From a virus: 31,755 nucleotides of DNA. The DNA lies in IMG/VR virus record IMGVR_UViG_3300019927_000140, positions 1-31,755 of that record; one strand, 5' to 3'. Below the pieces are notes generated by a model. That model was not told where the DNA came from, ran no database searches, and saw only the letters and a list, made by a program, of their open reading frames with translations. Both the position numbers and the translations under genes were made by a program. Below, in pieces: positions 1 to 11,832 of this stretch. Each line of letters opens with the position of its first letter. The stretch's first letter is position 1.

Positions 1-582
1 GATGACGTCGTTGGTGTCACCCGTGTCCGTCGAGGAGACCGTCAGCGTCGCGTCGCCGCTCGGCTGGTGGATGATGTGGGTCCGGGCGCGTTCGGCCTCG
101 TAGGTTAGCTCCTGCGGGATCGGCCCGGTACTCGAGGGGTCGCCGTCGAAGGACGCGCCGACGGGGCGTGCGCCCGAGAGAACAGCGAACTCGCGAAAGC
201 CAGCACCCGTCGCGCCGCCGGAGACGACCTCGCGGCGCTCGACGACCGTGTGGCTCGGATAGTCCTCGCTCGGGTCGGCGACGATCGGATACGCGATCGG
301 GTCCTGAACAGTGCCGTCGCTCGCGACCGGGAATTTCGCCTGCCGGTAGGAGATCGTCGCCGACGCCGACTCGGCAGCGCGGTCGTAGGCGGCAGGGTCG
401 ACTTGGCCGAGCGTCTCACGACCCTCCTTGTTTCCGTCCGTGCTATACGTGAATTCCGAGATTTCCGGCGCAAACGCGCCCCACGCGGGGTCGGTCGGAA
501 ACTCGCCGGGGGTCGTCTCGGCGACCCACTCGGTGCGGATGTCTTGGAGCCCGCTCTCAACGGGCGCTTGATCAGTACTCAT
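1..582 (-). CDS. Putative major tail (tube) protein, partial
   Basis: The reading frame starts at an ATG at 582 (MSTDQAPVESGLQD...) and stays open to base 1, giving about 194 residues with the C-terminus outside the window. Codon use and acidic composition match the neighbouring head genes. I do not recognise a diagnostic motif. The call rests on position: it follows the connector and terminator-like genes, where head-tail viruses place the tube or sheath gene, and on a beta-rich, Thr/Ser/Gly-rich sequence in the visible part. A tail sheath protein or another tail structural protein is possible. The frame is easily missed because it has no stop inside the window; several shorter frames on both strands overlap it and look like shadows. 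Confidence 0.55.
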   Translation of the reverse strand, partial: MSTDQAPVESGLQDIRTEWVAETTPGEFPTDPAWGAFAPEISEFTYSTDGNKEGRETLGQVDPAAYDRAAESASATISYRQAKFPVASDGTVQDPIAYPIVADPSEDYPSHTVVERREVVSGGATGAGFREFAVLSGARPVGASFDGDPSSTGPIPQELTYEAERARTHIIHQPSGDATLTVSSTDTGDTNDVI

Positions 583-620
583 GGTGATTTGGAACGGTTA
601 CTCAGCAAGCAGTACGACGG

Positions 621-1151
621 TCAGGGCCGACGGAGCCACGAATAATCGATCTGCGTGTTCGCGATGCGGACCGGCGGCGACACGTCGGTATCGTCCGGCG
701 CTTCGGGGCCGCGTTGAGAGCCGATGCTTTTGAACGCTGAACTCCCACCGGTAGCGTTGTCTTGACACACATTCTCGACGGCTTCGATAAGTTTCACAGC
801 GACGTCCTCGGCTGGTTCGCCGGCGTAGGAGCCGCTGTCGCCGGTATAGCCGCCGGCCTCTGCTTCGGCGCGAGCGATCGCTAGAAGCGTCCCTTGGCGG
901 TTCTGGCCAGGACCGTCCGGCGTGAGGTAGTCGTACGTCGACTCGCCACCGGTCGTCTCGTTGCTGTATTGGACGACGAGCGATGGATAGCCCGCACCGA
1001 CGTTGTCGAGGGTCGTTGCCACCGGAAGGAACGCCTCCTCGCCGGGCGCGGCGCTCGGGTCGTAGCCGACGGCCTCCGAGACGTCCCACGACGGGAGGAG
1101 GACCTTATCGATGAAGTGCTTGGCCGGTCGGTCGGGGAGCGTGAGTGTCAT
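621..1151 (-). CDS. Putative tail terminator / tail completion protein
   Basis: This 176-residue acidic protein starts MTLTLPDRPAKHFIDKV. Its start overlaps the end of the upstream gp10-like gene by 4 bases (ATGA), which indicates translational coupling. The next gene, the putative tail protein, begins 38 bases downstream. No catalytic motif is visible. The size, the place between the neck proteins and the first tail protein, and the N-terminal helix followed by mixed strands fit the tail terminator position of siphovirus and myovirus heads, where such proteins cap the tail tube and join it to the neck. This is inferred from gene order, not from a recognised domain. It could instead be a second neck protein. 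Confidence 0.5.
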   Translation of the reverse strand: MTLTLPDRPAKHFIDKVLLPSWDVSEAVGYDPSAAPGEEAFLPVATTLDNVGAGYPSLVVQYSNETTGGESTYDYLTPDGPGQNRQGTLLAIARAEAEAGGYTGDSGSYAGEPAEDVAVKLIEAVENVCQDNATGGSSAFKSIGSQRGPEAPDDTDVSPPVRIANTQIDYSWLRRP

Positions 1152-1633
1152 AACTCGACCGTCTCCTCGATCAGTCCGCGGCCCGCCGTCGCCGGGGCCG
1201 GATTGTCGCTATCGAAGCCCGAAAAGTCACCCGCGGTCGGCAGCACCGACGGGTCGCCGCCCCGGACAGCGAGAACGGACGCCCGGAGCGTGCCGGTATC
1301 GATCAACCCTTTGTCGGTAATGATCTCCTTCACGCGGCGCTCCAGCGCTAGCGCGAGGACTTTGATGACGGCGGCAACATCCGGGAGTGCGTCGACCGAC
1401 GTCTTTGTGTTGTGGGCGATGAACCCGTCGACGCCCTGGACGCGGACCTCGTTGATCGCCGGTTTGAAAAACGGTTTAGCGTCCATCTGTGAGGTCCCGA
1501 ACTCGAGGTATACGCTGTACTCAACGCCCGTCCCAAGGGTGTACGTCGTCACCGTCTGGACGTCGTCGGCCAAGTCTTCCAGTTCTTCAATGCGGGCCTC
1601 AAGCCCCTCTAGCGCGACGCCAAAGTCGCTCAT
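1148..1633 (-). CDS. HK97 gp10-like neck/tail completion protein
   Basis: This is a 161-residue protein. A leading acidic coiled-coil-like helix (residues about 5-25) is followed by a clear gp10-type block near residues 37-60 with the core YLEFGTSQMDAKPFFKPAI. Nearer the C-terminus is a DTGTLRASV segment, also typical of this family. Family members sit at the neck and are needed to complete the head-tail joint. The order of the two motifs is the reverse of the more common gp10 arrangement, in which the DTG-LR-S segment comes first. Start and stop both overlap neighbouring genes by 4 bases (stop of the upstream gene at 1630; start of the downstream gene at 1151), so it belongs to the coupled connector block. 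Confidence 0.72.
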   Translation of the reverse strand: MSDFGVALEGLEARIEELEDLADDVQTVTTYTLGTGVEYSVYLEFGTSQMDAKPFFKPAINEVRVQGVDGFIAHNTKTSVDALPDVAAVIKVLALALERRVKEIITDKGLIDTGTLRASVLAVRGGDPSVLPTAGDFSGFDSDNPAPATAGRGLIEETVEL

Positions 1634-2016
1634 ACTTCGACGACCTCCAACTCAACGAGACCGTTGTGGGCGTCGATCACCGTCTCGACCTCATACCGAG
1701 TTCCGTCGGCGGTATCGACGATGTGCGTTGGCGCTTCACTTTCAGCTGTGTAGTCCGCCCACGCTCGCCCGGTGTCGTCGCGGACGGTCACGACGGCGTC
1801 GATCTCCGCCGTAGTACCGCCGCGGTCGCGGTCGGATCGCGCCGACGGCGAAGTGACCCGCACATTGTACTCGGTGTCTGGCGTGTCGGGATATGAAACG
1901 CTGAATCCCTCGCCGGCCTCGTAAGTCTCAGTCGGCTCGTAGACCTCAATCGTCGTGTTGGCGAGCCTCGTCGAGTGAACGCGGCGGAGAGCGTTCTCGA
2001 CACGGTCTCGGGCCAT
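1630..2016 (-). CDS. Putative head closure (stopper) protein
   Basis: This 128-residue protein starts MARDRVENALRRVHSTRL and continues as a mostly beta, acidic sequence. It overlaps the upstream adaptor gene by an ATGA junction at 2016 and the downstream gp10-like gene by 4 bases. Proteins at this place, between the head-tail adaptor and the gp10-like protein, are usually head closure proteins of the SPP1 gp16 type. These are small beta-barrels with a long loop that seal the portal channel. The C-terminal half (VETVIDAHNGLVELEVVEV) has the strand pattern expected of such a barrel. No sequence signature was recognised directly, so the role is inferred from order, size and composition. Confidence 0.55.
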   Translation of the reverse strand: MARDRVENALRRVHSTRLANTTIEVYEPTETYEAGEGFSVSYPDTPDTEYNVRVTSPSARSDRDRGGTTAEIDAVVTVRDDTGRAWADYTAESEAPTHIVDTADGTRYEVETVIDAHNGLVELEVVEV

Positions 2017-6209: not shown

Positions 6210-7145
6210 TTACGCTCCTGAGAGAACCGTTCCAGGCACCCGTTCCGAAAGCGACGACGTCGGCGGACTGCCGCCGATCGTCGGCAGGATGACGCACTTC
6301 CCGTTCGGGTGCGCCGGCGGCTTCAGCCGGTAGACCTTCCCACGCCACTCGACAGCGCCGGTCGCCATCTCGTCGATAGTCAGCTCAGTTCCGGCGAGGC
6401 GTTTGCAGAAGTCGCAGATGTTGGCTCCGCCGATCGCCCACTCACCGTGCGAGACGGTGTTGACGCCAGCCCGTTCGTAGTTTCGAAGAGTGGCATCCGA
6501 GTGGGCCTCGATCGTCTCCGTTCGGGCGAGCGTCTCCGCTCGCGTCCGCTGGATAGTCCGGACCTCGCTCGTCAGTTCGCGAGCCATCTTCTTCGGGTTC
6601 CAGCCCTGCGCGAAGCCCTCGGTGACTATCTCACGGACCTGTGGAGCCGCCTCTTCAGTGACCGACTCGAGATCTTCGTAGACCCGCGTGTAGAGATCTT
6701 GTAGCGTTCGGGTGAAGATCGGTCGGCGGACGATCTCCTCGTTCGGGATGTTCTCGACGCTGGCCCCCTCTTGGAAGAGCAGGCCCGTCGACTGGTTGAC
6801 GCCACGGACGACTGCTGACCGGATGTACGCCGCCGTCCAGTGTTCGCCCTCAGGAACAGCATCTCGGTCGATCGGCTCAAGGACCTCGTCGCGAAGGACC
6901 TGGCGAAGCCAGCGGGCGAACTGCTCGAGTTTGCCGCGGTCGGTTGGGAAGTCAAAGGCCTCCCGCTCGTCGGCGTTGGCCCGCAGCCCAAACGCGTCGT
7001 TCTCGTAGCCAACCGTCCTGCGGACGAGGCCGCGGACTCGCCGGAAGCGTCGCCGGATCTCTTTCAGGAACTGCTCCTCAACAGCCGTCGACGTTACAGC
7101 CGCCTGTCGGTTGGCCGTCAGCGAATGGGCATGCGTCGAACTCAT
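6210..7145 (-). CDS. Mu F-like minor head protein
   Basis: The protein has 311 residues. The C-terminal half carries the phage Mu gpF-like domain: RAETLARTETIEAHSDA (about residues 202-218) and then a zinc-binding pattern with C244, C247, H279 and C284, the last two in PPAHPNGKC. The N-terminal half is helical, with an arginine-rich segment at residues 31-43. Proteins of this family attach inside the procapsid next to the portal and are ejected or retained as minor head proteins in different viruses. The gene follows the portal with a one-base overlap (shared base 7145) and precedes the protease/scaffold gene by 4 bases, the standard order. All four putative zinc ligands are present, so the domain looks intact. 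Confidence 0.88.
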   Translation of the reverse strand: MSSTHAHSLTANRQAAVTSTAVEEQFLKEIRRRFRRVRGLVRRTVGYENDAFGLRANADEREAFDFPTDRGKLEQFARWLRQVLRDEVLEPIDRDAVPEGEHWTAAYIRSAVVRGVNQSTGLLFQEGASVENIPNEEIVRRPIFTRTLQDLYTRVYEDLESVTEEAAPQVREIVTEGFAQGWNPKKMARELTSEVRTIQRTRAETLARTETIEAHSDATLRNYERAGVNTVSHGEWAIGGANICDFCKRLAGTELTIDEMATGAVEWRGKVYRLKPPAHPNGKCVILPTIGGSPPTSSLSERVPGTVLSGA

Positions 7146-9154
7146 CAGTCAGCCCAGCCTCCCCTCCAGTCGGTCGTCCCAAGCGCTTCGTCCTTCATCG
7201 CCCCGCAGAGGCGTTCGCTTTTCAGCTCGCCCATGCAGCAAGCGCCGCCGCAGTCGAACTGTGCGCCCATCGAGGACCAAGCGTCAAGGAGGATCACGCG
7301 TGAGGGCGTGTCGGATTGCCTCCAGGATCGCGGCATCGACCAGTCGTTCGCCGTGACGTCGCCGGAGAGGATATTCAGCCACGCCTTCAGGGTCCCCTCC
7401 GTGGTGTTCGCCTCAACGACGTCATCAGTTGGATCCTCAAGACCCACCTCTGGCCCCTCCGTTGCCTCGAGATCGCCAGCGCGGTAGAACTGGACGGTCG
7501 CCTCATCAACCATCGTCACCACGTACACCGGCGAGTCGCCGCTCGCTTCCATCCCGTCGACGCTGCCTTCCTGGACGGCATCGTCGACCAGACCTTTTCC
7601 GTCAGGTGTCTGAACCCAGTCGCCAGGCTCGTAGCGGGTTGCGTTACCCGTCTGCAGCGAGCTTGCTAGCTCGTGCAGCTGATCCTCACGGCTGTCGGGA
7701 TCGATCGTGTCGTTGCCGACGATCCCGTCAAACGTTTCTTGGACTCGAGGGTCGTCCTCGTCGACGGCCTCGTTGCCTTCGGGCCCATCCTCTCGTTCTG
7801 GGAACTCGCCGCTCTCGACGAACGCCTCTGCCCGCTCGCCGTTGAGGCCCGGGACTGCCGTCTGCAGGTTCGTCACAACCTCGGACCGCGTCGACATGAC
7901 GTCGGCTTGCTCCTGTTCGGAGAGTTCCGAGAGGTCCGGCCAGATCAGGTCGTACCACTCGCCGGCAGGATCGGGTAGGACGCCGTCATCGATGTGATGG
8001 TTGAGGATTGCCCGGGCGATGTAGGGGCCGGCGTACTGCTGTTGGCGCTCCGAGATGAGGCTGTGGTACTGCCGTTCGTCCTTCTCAGCGCTCGCGAGTT
8101 CGCCGAGAGAGGCACCCTCAAGGACGCGCTGCGGGATCCCGGTCTGCGTGGCGATCGCGCGGACGTTGTTGTCGACGATCCCCGTTGGATCCTTCACCTC
8201 GCCACCAAGGCGGTTGACCTCAGCACCCGTGGTGCGAAGGAACGGCTGCAGGCCGTGATACCAGTCCTGCAGGTCCTGTTGCATCGTGTCCATCGCGTCG
8301 CTGCCGGTGTCGACCTTCTCAGGATCGAGGTTGACGTTGATGCCGTAGTCGGCAGCCCGGTAGGACAGCTCCGCCGTCGATCCGAGCGCCTTCTCGATGT
8401 CGAGGATGTTGTTGAGCACCGGCTCCTGTCGCGGTCGCGCCCGTGTTTCGTCATCATCGAGGACTCGAGCCGGGACGTCGACGACGCGGGAGTGATGGAC
8501 GCGCAGCGTCGTGTCTTCCTCGTCGTTGGTGCCGGCGTCGGCATCGTCCCCCAAGTCGATCTGGTACTCGAGGGGTTGACCCCAGCGGTCACTTCCCGGG
8601 TCACCCCACTCGATATCCTCGATCATCGGCTCCGGATACACCCGATAGCCGTTGATCAAGTCGAGCCCGCTGACGCCCTCAGCGCCGGTGAACTCGTCCT
8701 GGAAGTCCTCCGGTTGGTTGGTGTCGGCGTAGTCGATCACGAGCAGGCCGTGCCGTCCGACACCGGCCATCCGATCAACGCGGTGACAGTAGTGCCAGAG
8801 GTCGTGGGCCCGATCGAGTTTCGTGATCGCTTCCTCGAAGTCGGTGTCTTCGTCTTGGACGTCCTCATCGCGTTCGATCCGATCGCGAACGTCGGGCTCG
8901 TGCTTCCAGGTCGTCTTCGGTTTCTGCGCGACGACGGCGTAGGCGTAGGCGTTCCGCAGGTACAGCGCGTAGTAGTTGTTAGCATCCCAGTCCGCGTTGT
9001 TCCCGCGATTGGGCCAGCCGAACGTGTCGTAATAATCGCGGTGGTCTCCAAAACCAGAATCTCCAAGCTCTTGGGCCAGAGACCACCTGAGACCGTCAAT
9101 TACTGCATTAGCTCTGAGGGCGACATCTCCGGCGCTGACTTCGCTGTCAGACAC
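7145..9154 (-). CDS. Portal protein
   Basis: The protein has 669 residues. The chosen start is the GTG at 9154 (MSDSEVSAGDVALRANAV). Residues 20-430 have the layout of a DUF1073-type portal: an N-terminal helix, then TWKHEPDVRDRIE, DKLVIDY-like strands (HGLLVIDYADTN), a stem region and the long helix before IPQRVLEGASLGELASAEKDERQYHSLI, a strongly portal-like segment (AG.. followed by QxxY). Residues 500-560 contain a small SH3-like unit (YEPGDWVQTPDGKGLV). The last 70 residues are Cys-rich (FDCGGACCMGEL). The first 40 codons use AT-ending codons unlike the rest of the gene and duplicate the truncated copy upstream at 10056-10202, which suggests the 5' end came with the endonuclease insertion. 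Confidence 0.85.
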   Translation of the reverse strand: MSDSEVSAGDVALRANAVIDGLRWSLAQELGDSGFGDHRDYYDTFGWPNRGNNADWDANNYYALYLRNAYAYAVVAQKPKTTWKHEPDVRDRIERDEDVQDEDTDFEEAITKLDRAHDLWHYCHRVDRMAGVGRHGLLVIDYADTNQPEDFQDEFTGAEGVSGLDLINGYRVYPEPMIEDIEWGDPGSDRWGQPLEYQIDLGDDADAGTNDEEDTTLRVHHSRVVDVPARVLDDDETRARPRQEPVLNNILDIEKALGSTAELSYRAADYGINVNLDPEKVDTGSDAMDTMQQDLQDWYHGLQPFLRTTGAEVNRLGGEVKDPTGIVDNNVRAIATQTGIPQRVLEGASLGELASAEKDERQYHSLISERQQQYAGPYIARAILNHHIDDGVLPDPAGEWYDLIWPDLSELSEQEQADVMSTRSEVVTNLQTAVPGLNGERAEAFVESGEFPEREDGPEGNEAVDEDDPRVQETFDGIVGNDTIDPDSREDQLHELASSLQTGNATRYEPGDWVQTPDGKGLVDDAVQEGSVDGMEASGDSPVYVVTMVDEATVQFYRAGDLEATEGPEVGLEDPTDDVVEANTTEGTLKAWLNILSGDVTANDWSMPRSWRQSDTPSRVILLDAWSSMGAQFDCGGACCMGELKSERLCGAMKDEALGTTDWRGGWAD
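9086..9112 (-). repeat. Recoded portal 5' segment, right partner of the insertion-flanking repeat
   Basis: Read on the minus strand this stretch encodes ANAVIDGLR of the functional portal and also contains the stop codon of the endonuclease gene (TAA at 9102-9100). It aligns without gaps to 10014-10040 with 20 of 27 identical bases. The two copies lie on either side of the endonuclease gene in the same orientation. Confidence 0.6.
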
Positions 9155-9999
9155 GGTTCATCACCCCAGAGAAGTCGCGGGAACAGGTCGGTGGCCATGG
9201 CTTCGGCCTTCCCGTGGCAGGACGGGCAGAGCGCCCACAGGTTCCAGTCGGCGTGCGTCCCGCCACTCCGGAGCGGGATGAGGTGGTGGGCCTGTAGCCC
9301 CGACTGCCCGTGCGTCGGCGTTTCCTCGCCGCACATCTCACACCGACCGTCGGCGTCCTCGCGGACGCGGTGGGCGATTTCCTCCCAGTGGGTCCCGTCA
9401 GCCGTGAGGATGCGCCGGACACGTTCGACGCCCTTGCCACCGTAGCCGTGGTCGTAGAAGCACCCCGGCGAGCAGAACCGGTAGTCGTGGTGCTTCGCTT
9501 CCTCCTCGGTGACGGTGAACTCGGTGTCGCACTGCGAGCAGTCCTTGGTGACGGTCGGCACGAGTGACTCCCCGTGAACGGTTTGGTGGTGAATCCGCAT
9601 CCCGCGTCGGTCCTCGAAGCCCTGCCCACACGTCGGGCACTGTGAGTCCTCGGTCGCCCGACCATCGAAGTGCTCCCGCTCGAAGTGGTCGGCGAGCGCA
9701 GACGCCGTCCGGAAGCGGTCGTCGCACTCGGCGCACACGTTCGACCCGTCGGGGTCGTCGGCCCGCCGGTCGCGGCCCTGACACTCCTGCGAGCAGTAGT
9801 GATTCTCGGCGTCACTGACGTTGCTCGGGAGTTTGTGGAACGTGTCGCCGCAGTGAGCGCAGGTGAGGGCGACCTTGTTTTCGTTGGCGTCGGAGTTGCA
9901 GTACGCCTTGTAGCAGTCGTACGAGCAGAACCGCCCCGAGGAGTTGGACGGGTAGTAGGTGAAGTCGTCCCCACAGTTCTCACACGTCGCTTCGACCAT
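9100..9999 (-). CDS. HNH endonuclease with N-terminal zinc-finger array (homing type)
   Basis: The frame is open from a GTG at 10017, but the ATG at 9999 (MVEATCENCGDDF) is preferred because the first zinc finger begins there, giving 299 residues. In order there are two CxxC...CxxxC fingers (C6/C9/C25/C29 and C47/C50/C69/C73), two C2H2-type fingers (C89/C92/H104/H110 and C121/C124/H137/H142), a third CxxC finger (C154/C157/C176/C180) and an HNH nuclease domain: C220/C223, catalytic HH at 238-239, N253, and C258/C261/H262. The fingers presumably read the DNA target and HNH nicks or cuts it. The gene is inserted between terminase and portal, interrupts a first portal start, and overlaps the 5' end of the second by 55 bases. 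A free-standing homing endonuclease is the best explanation. Confidence 0.9.
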   Translation of the reverse strand: MVEATCENCGDDFTYYPSNSSGRFCSYDCYKAYCNSDANENKVALTCAHCGDTFHKLPSNVSDAENHYCSQECQGRDRRADDPDGSNVCAECDDRFRTASALADHFEREHFDGRATEDSQCPTCGQGFEDRRGMRIHHQTVHGESLVPTVTKDCSQCDTEFTVTEEEAKHHDYRFCSPGCFYDHGYGGKGVERVRRILTADGTHWEEIAHRVREDADGRCEMCGEETPTHGQSGLQAHHLIPLRSGGTHADWNLWALCPSCHGKAEAMATDLFPRLLWGDEPCLTAKSAPEMSPSELMQ

Positions 10000-10013
10000 A
10001 CCATGTATAGAAT

Positions 10014-10040
10014 CCACAGTCCCTTAATTCCTGCGTTAGC
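10014..10040 (-). repeat. Degenerate portal 5' segment at the upstream edge of the endonuclease gene
   Basis: Minus-strand translation in the frame of the upstream portal fragment gives ANAGIKGLW, which matches ANAVIDGLRW of the portal. The base match to 9086-9112 is 20 of 27. It also contains GGAATTAAGG about 27 bases before the endonuclease ATG, which could act as a TATA-like box. Confidence 0.5.
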
Positions 10041-10202
10041 AGTCTCAGACGTGCGGTTATCGGCGTACCAGTCGCGAGCGTCGTGCCCAGAGTCGCCCAG
10101 CTCGTTGGCGAGCGACCACCGAAGCCCGTCGATCACGGCGTTTGCCCGCACGGCGATCTCGCCGGCGTCTGGTTGCTCGCCTCGCTGTGTGTTCGTACTC
10201 AT
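10041..10202 (-). pseudogene. Truncated 5' end of a portal gene, interrupted by the endonuclease insertion
   Basis: An ATG at 10202, 10 bases after the terminase stop codon, starts MSTNTQRGEQPDAGEIAV and continues with RANAVIDGLRWSLANELGDSG. It aligns with the N-terminus of the functional portal (AGEIAVRANAVIDGLRWSLA against AGDVALRANAVIDGLRWSLA). Similarity ends around residues 46-49 (WYADN), where portal sequence stops and the insertion begins. The frame stays open through the endonuclease region to 9147 but the translation there is a meaningless shadow of the endonuclease gene. The codons are GC-rich like the rest of the genome, so this looks like the original portal start. A short peptide may still be translated from it. 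Confidence 0.8.
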
Positions 10203-10212
10203 AGTGTGTCAG

Positions 10213-11832
10213 TTACCAAACAGGGGACGGCTTCTCGGCCTCGAAGTCGACGCGGTCGATCCACAGCGCCATCAGCGCAGCATCGAGGTAGTCCGGCGAG
10301 TGGCCGAGCTCCTCCTTGACTGCGTCCTTCGACGTCGCCTGGTAGACCTCGGCACCGTTCTTGCCACGACTGTCGAGGGTCCGCCCTTCGTACTGGATGA
10401 CGCGGGCAGCGGCCAGCGCTTCCTTCCGGAGTTGCTGGCTCGCGATGCTCCCGCCGGCCTCGAGGAACTCGCCGAGGTGATGCAGCGCCTCGGCCCACTT
10501 GTCCTTCCACCGCGTCGTCGCGACCGGCATCGTCCCGTTCTGAAACCCGACGACGTTCGGGACGCGGTCGTTGACGTAGTCGTGAAAGCCCGGGGCATAG
10601 CCCTTGTCCACCGCGACGTCCGGCGCTGGCCACTCGCTCAGCCCCGGCGTCGACGCCGTCCCATCGACGACCTCCGGCTTCTGTTGCTCGTGGTTGTCCC
10701 CCTGCTCGCCGTAGTGGACGCGGAGCTCAAGGTCGTGGACGCCGACCATCACCGTCTTGTCGGTCGTCCGAGCAACGTCGATCCCGACCGCCTGCGGCGT
10801 CTGTCGAACCTGCCCCGGCTGGCGGTCGTACGCCGACCGGACGTCGGCTGGCTCGATGGGGCGAAGCACCGACGCCCCACCCGGCGGGACGATCCCGCAA
10901 CGGCGACGATACCACAGCGAGTGCAGATCTTCACGGAACTCGTCGTTCGGAAGCTGGCTGCGAGCTTCCGGGAGAACCGCACTGCGCTCTTCCGGTGACG
11001 CGCCGAGCCACGGGTCCGACCACCGGATCGCCTGTTCGAGCCCGGGCCACGGCTCGTCGTGGTACTCCTTCCAGTCCTGTTTGAGCTTGTACGACGTCGC
11101 GAGCCCGCCGATCTCCTCGCGCTCCTCGAGGCCGCGCTCAAGGCGGACGTTGTGGCAGTCCCAGGTCGGGAACTGGAGGTGGTGCCACTCGTCGTTCTCG
11201 ATGAGCTGGTGGACGACGTTGCCCGAGTCATCCGGCGGGTTTGAGATGACGAGGATGCGGTCATTTCGATCAGAGACTGTCGAACGGACTGAGTCGATGT
11301 GCTCAGCCGTGACCCCTGGTTTGTCGGCCTCCTCGACGATGTATATCAGGTGATCGTTGTGCGGTCCCTCAAGATCGTCCGGGTACCGCGGACTGACGCA
11401 CTCGAAGAACCACTCGTCGTCGAGGCCGGTCCGGATCTCGCGGTCGCCGTCCATCGTCCGCCCGCCGAACATCGCCGGGAGTGGACTCCCACGGTACAGG
11501 CTCCGGGCGGGCTTCCAGATGTTCGTCTTCAGCGTGCCCGACGTCCCAGCGGTGACGTTGACGATCGTGTCCGGGTTACAGTGCAGTGCCGCGACGCCGC
11601 CCGCCGCTGCGATGTATGACTTCCCGACGCCGTTCGCGGCGGAGACGACCACCTGTTCGTGCTTGTGGAGGGCGGCGAGGATGTGATCCTGAACGTAGGT
11701 GCGCTCGAGGCCCAGGATATCATCGATGAAACGAGCGTACCGATCCGGACCCGTCGATGGCGCATACTGCGCCATGACGTCGGTGATCGTGTCGACGTCG
11801 ACGCCGGCGTCGGAGCTCGTAGTCGTGCTCAT
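10213..11832 (-). CDS. terL: Terminase large subunit
   Basis: The protein has 539 residues and is the ATP-driven DNA packaging motor and headful or site-specific nuclease. The ATPase has Walker A SAANGVGKS at residues 64-72, Walker B HLIYIVEEAD at 161-170 with catalytic glutamate at 167 or 168, and the coupling segment ILVISNPP at 193-200. The nuclease domain has an RNase H-like set of acids: D352 (VGIDVAR), D409 (VAVDKG) and D514/D517 (HSPDYLDAAL). All expected elements are present, so the enzyme looks functional. The gene follows the small terminase gene by 2 bases and precedes the original portal start by 10 bases. The domain order and length are normal for the family. Confidence 0.95.
   Translation of the reverse strand: MSTTTSSDAGVDVDTITDVMAQYAPSTGPDRYARFIDDILGLERTYVQDHILAALHKHEQVVVSAANGVGKSYIAAAGGVAALHCNPDTIVNVTAGTSGTLKTNIWKPARSLYRGSPLPAMFGGRTMDGDREIRTGLDDEWFFECVSPRYPDDLEGPHNDHLIYIVEEADKPGVTAEHIDSVRSTVSDRNDRILVISNPPDDSGNVVHQLIENDEWHHLQFPTWDCHNVRLERGLEEREEIGGLATSYKLKQDWKEYHDEPWPGLEQAIRWSDPWLGASPEERSAVLPEARSQLPNDEFREDLHSLWYRRRCGIVPPGGASVLRPIEPADVRSAYDRQPGQVRQTPQAVGIDVARTTDKTVMVGVHDLELRVHYGEQGDNHEQQKPEVVDGTASTPGLSEWPAPDVAVDKGYAPGFHDYVNDRVPNVVGFQNGTMPVATTRWKDKWAEALHHLGEFLEAGGSIASQQLRKEALAAARVIQYEGRTLDSRGKNGAEVYQATSKDAVKEELGHSPDYLDAALMALWIDRVDFEAEKPSPVW

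Follow-up and report, generated by a model that had tools for sequence, protein, structure and literature searches.

Organization of the portal locus

The locus described here raises the question of why the portal gene of a haloarchaeal virus should have two starts with an HNH endonuclease gene lodged between them. The analysed stretch of DNA (the window) is a metagenome-derived IMG/VR virus record of 31,755 bases, taken at its full length. The genes of interest follow each other on the minus strand: a terminase large subunit gene, a cut-off portal start, the HNH gene and a portal gene running from a GTG codon at 9154 to 7145. The features are listed below (L numbers denote relatives introduced in the next section).

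10213..11832, minus strand: terminase large subunit gene, left neighbour of the insert and probable left homology arm of the element (phrog_2, E 7e-17; 89% amino acid identity with terL of L002 and L003)
10065..10202, minus strand: orphaned original portal 5′ end, codons 1-46, with an ATG start and the ending ...RDWY (identity to the portal starts of L002, L003 and L026)
10000..10064, minus strand: insert leader, from the portal break to the HNH start codon (absent from the continuous portal genes of all insertion-free relatives)
9100..9999, minus strand: HNH endonuclease gene, 299 aa, intact (matches to PF01844, zf-FCS and phrog_1271)
9160..9165, minus strand: GGTGAT, a Shine-Dalgarno-like match, 5 nt upstream of the new portal's GTG codon (sequence reading)
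9029..9154, minus strand: replacement portal 5′ end, codons 1-42, diverged, with AT-ending codons and a protein of the L030 type (codon differences, nucleotide identity, GC3)
7145..9028, minus strand: native portal body, in frame with the replacement start (PF06381 Phage_portal_3, E 2e-25; 87-90% nucleotide identity right after the junction)

The insert comprises 1,036 bases (9029-10064) and severs the first 46 codons of the portal gene from its body. The gene is broken after codon 46 (...RDWY) and is picked up at codon 43 of a new frame (DTFGW), as the second portal start, situated inside the insert, reads in frame into the portal body. Alignment of the peptides encoded upstream and downstream gave a match score of 124, while codon-shuffled flanks gave at most 48; the similarity of the two starts is far beyond chance. 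A preliminary description of this DNA had reported two portal starts with an HNH gene between them, and both starts, the gene and the reading frames were confirmed. The upstream start, placed there at 10041-10202, had to be shortened: homology holds over 10065-10202 (46 codons) only, and positions 10000-10064 belong to the insert leader. Comparison of the codons showed the earlier count, 15 of 19 variable codons changed between the two starts, to be exact.

The HNH ORF (ATG at 9999, stop at 9100) and the new portal start have 55 nt in common (9100-9154). The stop codon of the HNH ORF arises inside the recoded portal codons, where GCA GTA ATT read out of frame yields TAA. The hexamer GGTGAT ahead of the GTG codon, which we take to be a match to the anti-SD consensus, is consistent with translation of the new start. 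The earlier proposal that the carried start repairs the interrupted gene is thus well supported by the frame, by protein conservation and by the Shine-Dalgarno-like match.

Judged by its sequence, the product of the gene at 9100-9999 belongs to the HNH endonuclease family: the ORF is intact and the catalytic His and Asn as well as the zinc-binding Cys residues are present. The protein matched Pfam families PF01844 (E 4e-9; 36.8 bits, above the cut-off of 21.4) and zf-FCS (E 5e-9), and phrog_1271 among PHROGs (E 3e-30). In an alignment with six halovirus HNH proteins the H, H, N and H of the HNH domain (∼9205-9342) are invariant. The N-terminal part (∼9457-9990) is zinc-finger-like, and residues 88-145 are matched by zinc-finger proteins of solved structure.

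Insertion-free relatives and age of the insertion

Six relatives are free of the insertion, each having one continuous portal start: L002 (the same virus as genome locus L080), L003, L030 and L027, which are virus contigs; L026, a provirus in Natrinema ejinorense; and the more distant L082. The insertion sits in a gene that is uninterrupted in these relatives. The preliminary description would have been contradicted by insertion-free viruses with the recoded start as their sole portal 5′ end; none of the six carries it, and GC3 of the first 46 portal codons is 0.78-0.93 in the five relatives measured. The terminase relatives L019 and L021 have a portal of another type or none comparable. In L027 a small ORF (∼57 aa, with CxxC motifs) lies on the reverse strand between the terminase and the whole portal start. 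The C-terminal parts of the portal (7145-8000 in the window) differ in kind among close relatives, the window and L002 having one kind and L003 and L030 another, which suggests module exchange at the 3′ end of the gene as well.

The two portal starts of the window have different histories. The orphaned copy is 83-86% identical at the nucleotide level, and in 40-43 of 46 residues, to the portal starts of the three closest relatives (L002, L003 and L026); the rest of the genome is similarly close (portal body 82%, terminase 83-84% nucleotide identity). Its conservation matches that of the genome at large, and it contains neither a stop codon nor a frameshift; we conclude from this that the insertion is recent. 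The replacement start (codons 1-42), in contrast, has only 58-64% nucleotide and 66-80% amino acid identity to the relatives. Nucleotide identity jumps to 87-90% in codons 43-84, the step falling at the insertion point. Codons at identical residues differ in a fraction of 0.71-0.84 of cases in codons 1-42 and of 0.33-0.40 in codons 43-440 (Fisher p from 1.3e-3 to 3.9e-7, five relatives). Most comparisons among the five relatives themselves show no such 5′ excess; two involving L030 reach only p 0.04-0.05.

Given 58-64% nucleotide identity for the replacement as opposed to 83-86% for the orphaned copy, we infer that the replacement had already diverged on arrival; drift since so recent an insertion could not have produced the divergence. 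An orphaned end close to the relatives, together with a carried fragment diverged in DNA, conserved in protein and placed in frame, is the pattern that, as far as sequence can tell, marks the WHO elements and mitochondrial mORFs discussed below.

Import or recoding of the replacement start

The preliminary description had set recoding of the portal start against import of a diverged 5′ end with the endonuclease from another virus. Our results point to a mixture of the two. The SGFGDxRDYY type, to which the new N-terminus belongs, is found also in insertion-free L030 (32 of 42 residues identical), and the orphaned copy is of the SGHxxRDWY type. Because the downstream protein type occurs in L030 and the resident type differs, the replacement start was probably imported and not made from the resident copy.

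The codons, on the other hand, are unlike those of L030. Where the replacement and L030 share a residue, 26 of 31 codons differ, the most in all comparisons. Synonymous resampling with the virus's own codon usage produced such a difference from L030 at P = 0.0003, and resampling with uniform usage at P = 0.06; under uniform usage the codon differences as a whole are not unusual (P = 0.06-0.80). Set against the resident upstream copy only, the codon difference falls short of extreme with native usage (P = 0.15). The preference of the downstream copy for AT-ending codons, noted earlier, is borne out by GC3 values of 0.41 (codons 9-42) and 0.30 (codons 14-36), compared with a mean of 0.79 for 13 ORFs; this level is reached by 0.5% of windows. 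The codons of the replacement stretch are rarer than those in any of 2727 windows from 12 ORFs.

A single AT-rich donor is disfavoured as a simple explanation of the replacement start, because the HNH gene should then be marked too, and its GC3 is 0.875, without AT bias. The codon pattern favours selection on the codons of the portal fragment; neutral saturation in an AT-richer, unsampled lineage is a possible source of the codon difference.

Distribution of the element

Searches of viral_contigs, the phage collection and sampled haloarchaeal genomes, made with the HNH protein, with DNA and with portal patterns, did not reveal a second occupied allele. No relative emerged when viral_contigs was scanned with the single HNH protein, a search of phages with the insert DNA gave no match, and alignment-based searches returned distant HNH proteins only. 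Portal starts in 20 further viral contigs lack an upstream duplicate. No virus searched by portal patterns, nor any of the further viral contigs, has the AT-ending start as its native allele. The same element was not found in several genomes in these searches; its mobility is therefore deduced from its structure.

No comparable duplication of a gene end was seen at ∼78 distant HNH loci (12 viral, 33 from haloarchaeal genomes, in which the ORF was picked by motif and may be wrong in some cases, and 33 further genome loci), with one exception of a different kind. In this haloarchaeal genome locus (L134) an HNH gene (485-1771, minus strand) is flanked by 66-nt direct repeats (389-454 and 2165-2230, 88% identical) comprising the 3′ end of an adjacent ORF; this may be a further gene-end duplication around an HNH element. 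In HVTV-1 (L009:415-3121) HNH genes occupy both sides of the terminase gene, and in HCTV-16 (L012:2489-4575) one side; the terminase neighbourhood may be a repeated target of HNH genes.

Proposed mechanism and alternative explanations

We propose, with a probability of roughly 0.6, that the insert is an intron-less homing element of the portal gene, with a portal fragment that restores the interrupted gene and has lost the enzyme's target. Portal codons 1-42, in diverged form, would make up the unit of the element together with the HNH endonuclease and its zinc-finger-like DNA-binding modules. Most likely the enzyme recognises the original portal start, and it would cut insertion-free alleles near codon 46 during co-infection. 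The element-bearing genome would then serve as the repair template; homology on the left would be supplied by the terminase gene together with the orphaned portal start, and on the right by the portal body. Translation from the GTG that the element brings along would keep up production of the essential portal protein, so that the virus survives. Since the protein is almost unchanged but the DNA differs, the carried start should be without the enzyme's target and hence immune to cleavage. The low DNA identity between the two copies would make recombinational loss of the element harder as well: with a longest common exact word of 7 nt, the copies share too little DNA for ready looping out. The stronger version, a home-and-rescue drive in which the portal start is the target of a zinc-finger HNH nuclease that spreads together with the rescue copy, and selection on synonymous codons of that copy has destroyed the target and blocked recombinational loss, is put forward tentatively and seems to us slightly less probable than its converse.

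The main competitor of the homing reading is ordinary recombination, in which the HNH gene was acquired together with an adjoining diverged portal start from another virus, through an illegitimate left and a homologous right junction; the enzyme would not specifically recognise the portal start, nor would the codons have been under selection. We regard this as unlikely, though more probable than the other alternatives. It agrees with the downstream protein being an existing allele type, that of L030, with the frequent location of HNH genes beside the terminase and portal genes of haloviruses (HVTV-1 and HCTV-16 are examples) and with the single occupied allele in the collections searched. It agrees less well with the failure to find a virus having the AT-ending start as its native allele, and one AT-rich donor does not account for both the replacement and an HNH gene of such different GC3. 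Moreover, a break within a gene, made good by a replacement that fits to the codon, is what known homing elements show.

Two further explanations have little probability. As the record is metagenome-derived, two strain variants might have been joined into an assembly chimera; however, exact words common to the two starts are at most 7 nt long, and thus a k-mer assembler cannot be misled by them, both flanks fit one genome and the reading frame is intact. Equally improbable is a different cause of selection on these codons, for instance evasion of CRISPR spacers in the host or a benefit to translation initiation within the end of the HNH gene. The new start does lie within the HNH coding end, but recoding reaches as far as codon 42, and neither a translation ramp nor mRNA structure was supported as the reason for recoding: folding of the mRNA is no weaker at the new start than at the original one (−32.7 versus −27.7 kcal/mol). 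The weakest candidate is a spliced intron holding the HNH gene, with the upstream start joined to the portal body in RNA: joining the flanks does give ...RDWY-DTFGW, as at empty sites, but exons of an intron meet without duplicated coding sequence, and here the supposed intron would contain a second portal start that is complete, conserved, in frame and equipped with a GTG and a Shine-Dalgarno-like site, which this model leaves unexplained.

Comparison with known systems

Free-standing homing endonucleases of phages are usually protected by the insertion itself or by divergence of flanking sequence, and not by a carried in-frame replacement of a broken gene. With such genes (T4 Seg/Mob, HEG islands of ICP1) the portal element shares a virus-borne HNH gene beside essential structural genes (PMC10448857, PMC2988022). 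No virus case of a homing element with a resistant replacement gene end was found in the literature searched, the scope of which did not extend to subscription journals and preprints.

Closer parallels come from fungi. In the WHO elements of the yeasts Torulaspora and Lachancea (Coughlan et al. 2020) the unit consists of an endonuclease gene and an FBA1 3′ end conferring resistance; allele-specific cleavage and resistance were proven experimentally (PMC7282813). Like the WHO elements (PMC7282813), the portal element combines a free, zinc-finger-bearing endonuclease with a substitute end for an essential gene and retains a piece of the old end as a second homology region; its carried end is expected to resist the enzyme. 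The WHO enzyme, however, is of the LAGLIDADG, intein-derived kind, the carried end is a 3′ end of a yeast nuclear gene and cleavage is proven, whereas the portal element has an HNH enzyme and a 5′ end, resides in an archaeal tailed virus and is known from sequence.

Fungal mitochondrial mORFs in atp6, atp9, cox2 and nad3 (Allomyces, Glomus) have inserted ends with 64-81% nucleotide and 94-100% amino acid identity to the relative, compared with 91-98% nucleotide identity for the native end (PMC3630166). As in the portal gene, the native gene end is orphaned beyond the endonuclease ORF and the carried end is diverged in DNA (PMC3630166); the mORFs differ in having C-terminal ends, LAGLIDADG or GIY-YIG enzymes and a mitochondrial location. 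N-terminal duplications, associated with introns, were described in Tremella mitochondria (PMC7315562). There, too, an intruding element comes with a duplicated fragment of the host gene, and foreign exchange of gene parts was proposed (PMC7315562); yet these are annotated mitochondrial introns, most not acting as spliced introns, and not elements of an archaeal virus.

Because a second occupied allele was not found, we class the portal element as one that works like WHO elements and mORFs, not as a proven member of either group. By this analogy, it would follow their logic in mirror image, at a 5′ end, with an HNH enzyme and in an archaeal tailed virus. Homing elements with resistant replacements are known from yeast nuclei and fungal mitochondria; a virus example with clean empty sites would permit direct tests of a home-and-rescue origin and of selection on synonymous recoding. 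Such an element would also provide one route to sub-gene mosaicism in the structural genes of viruses.
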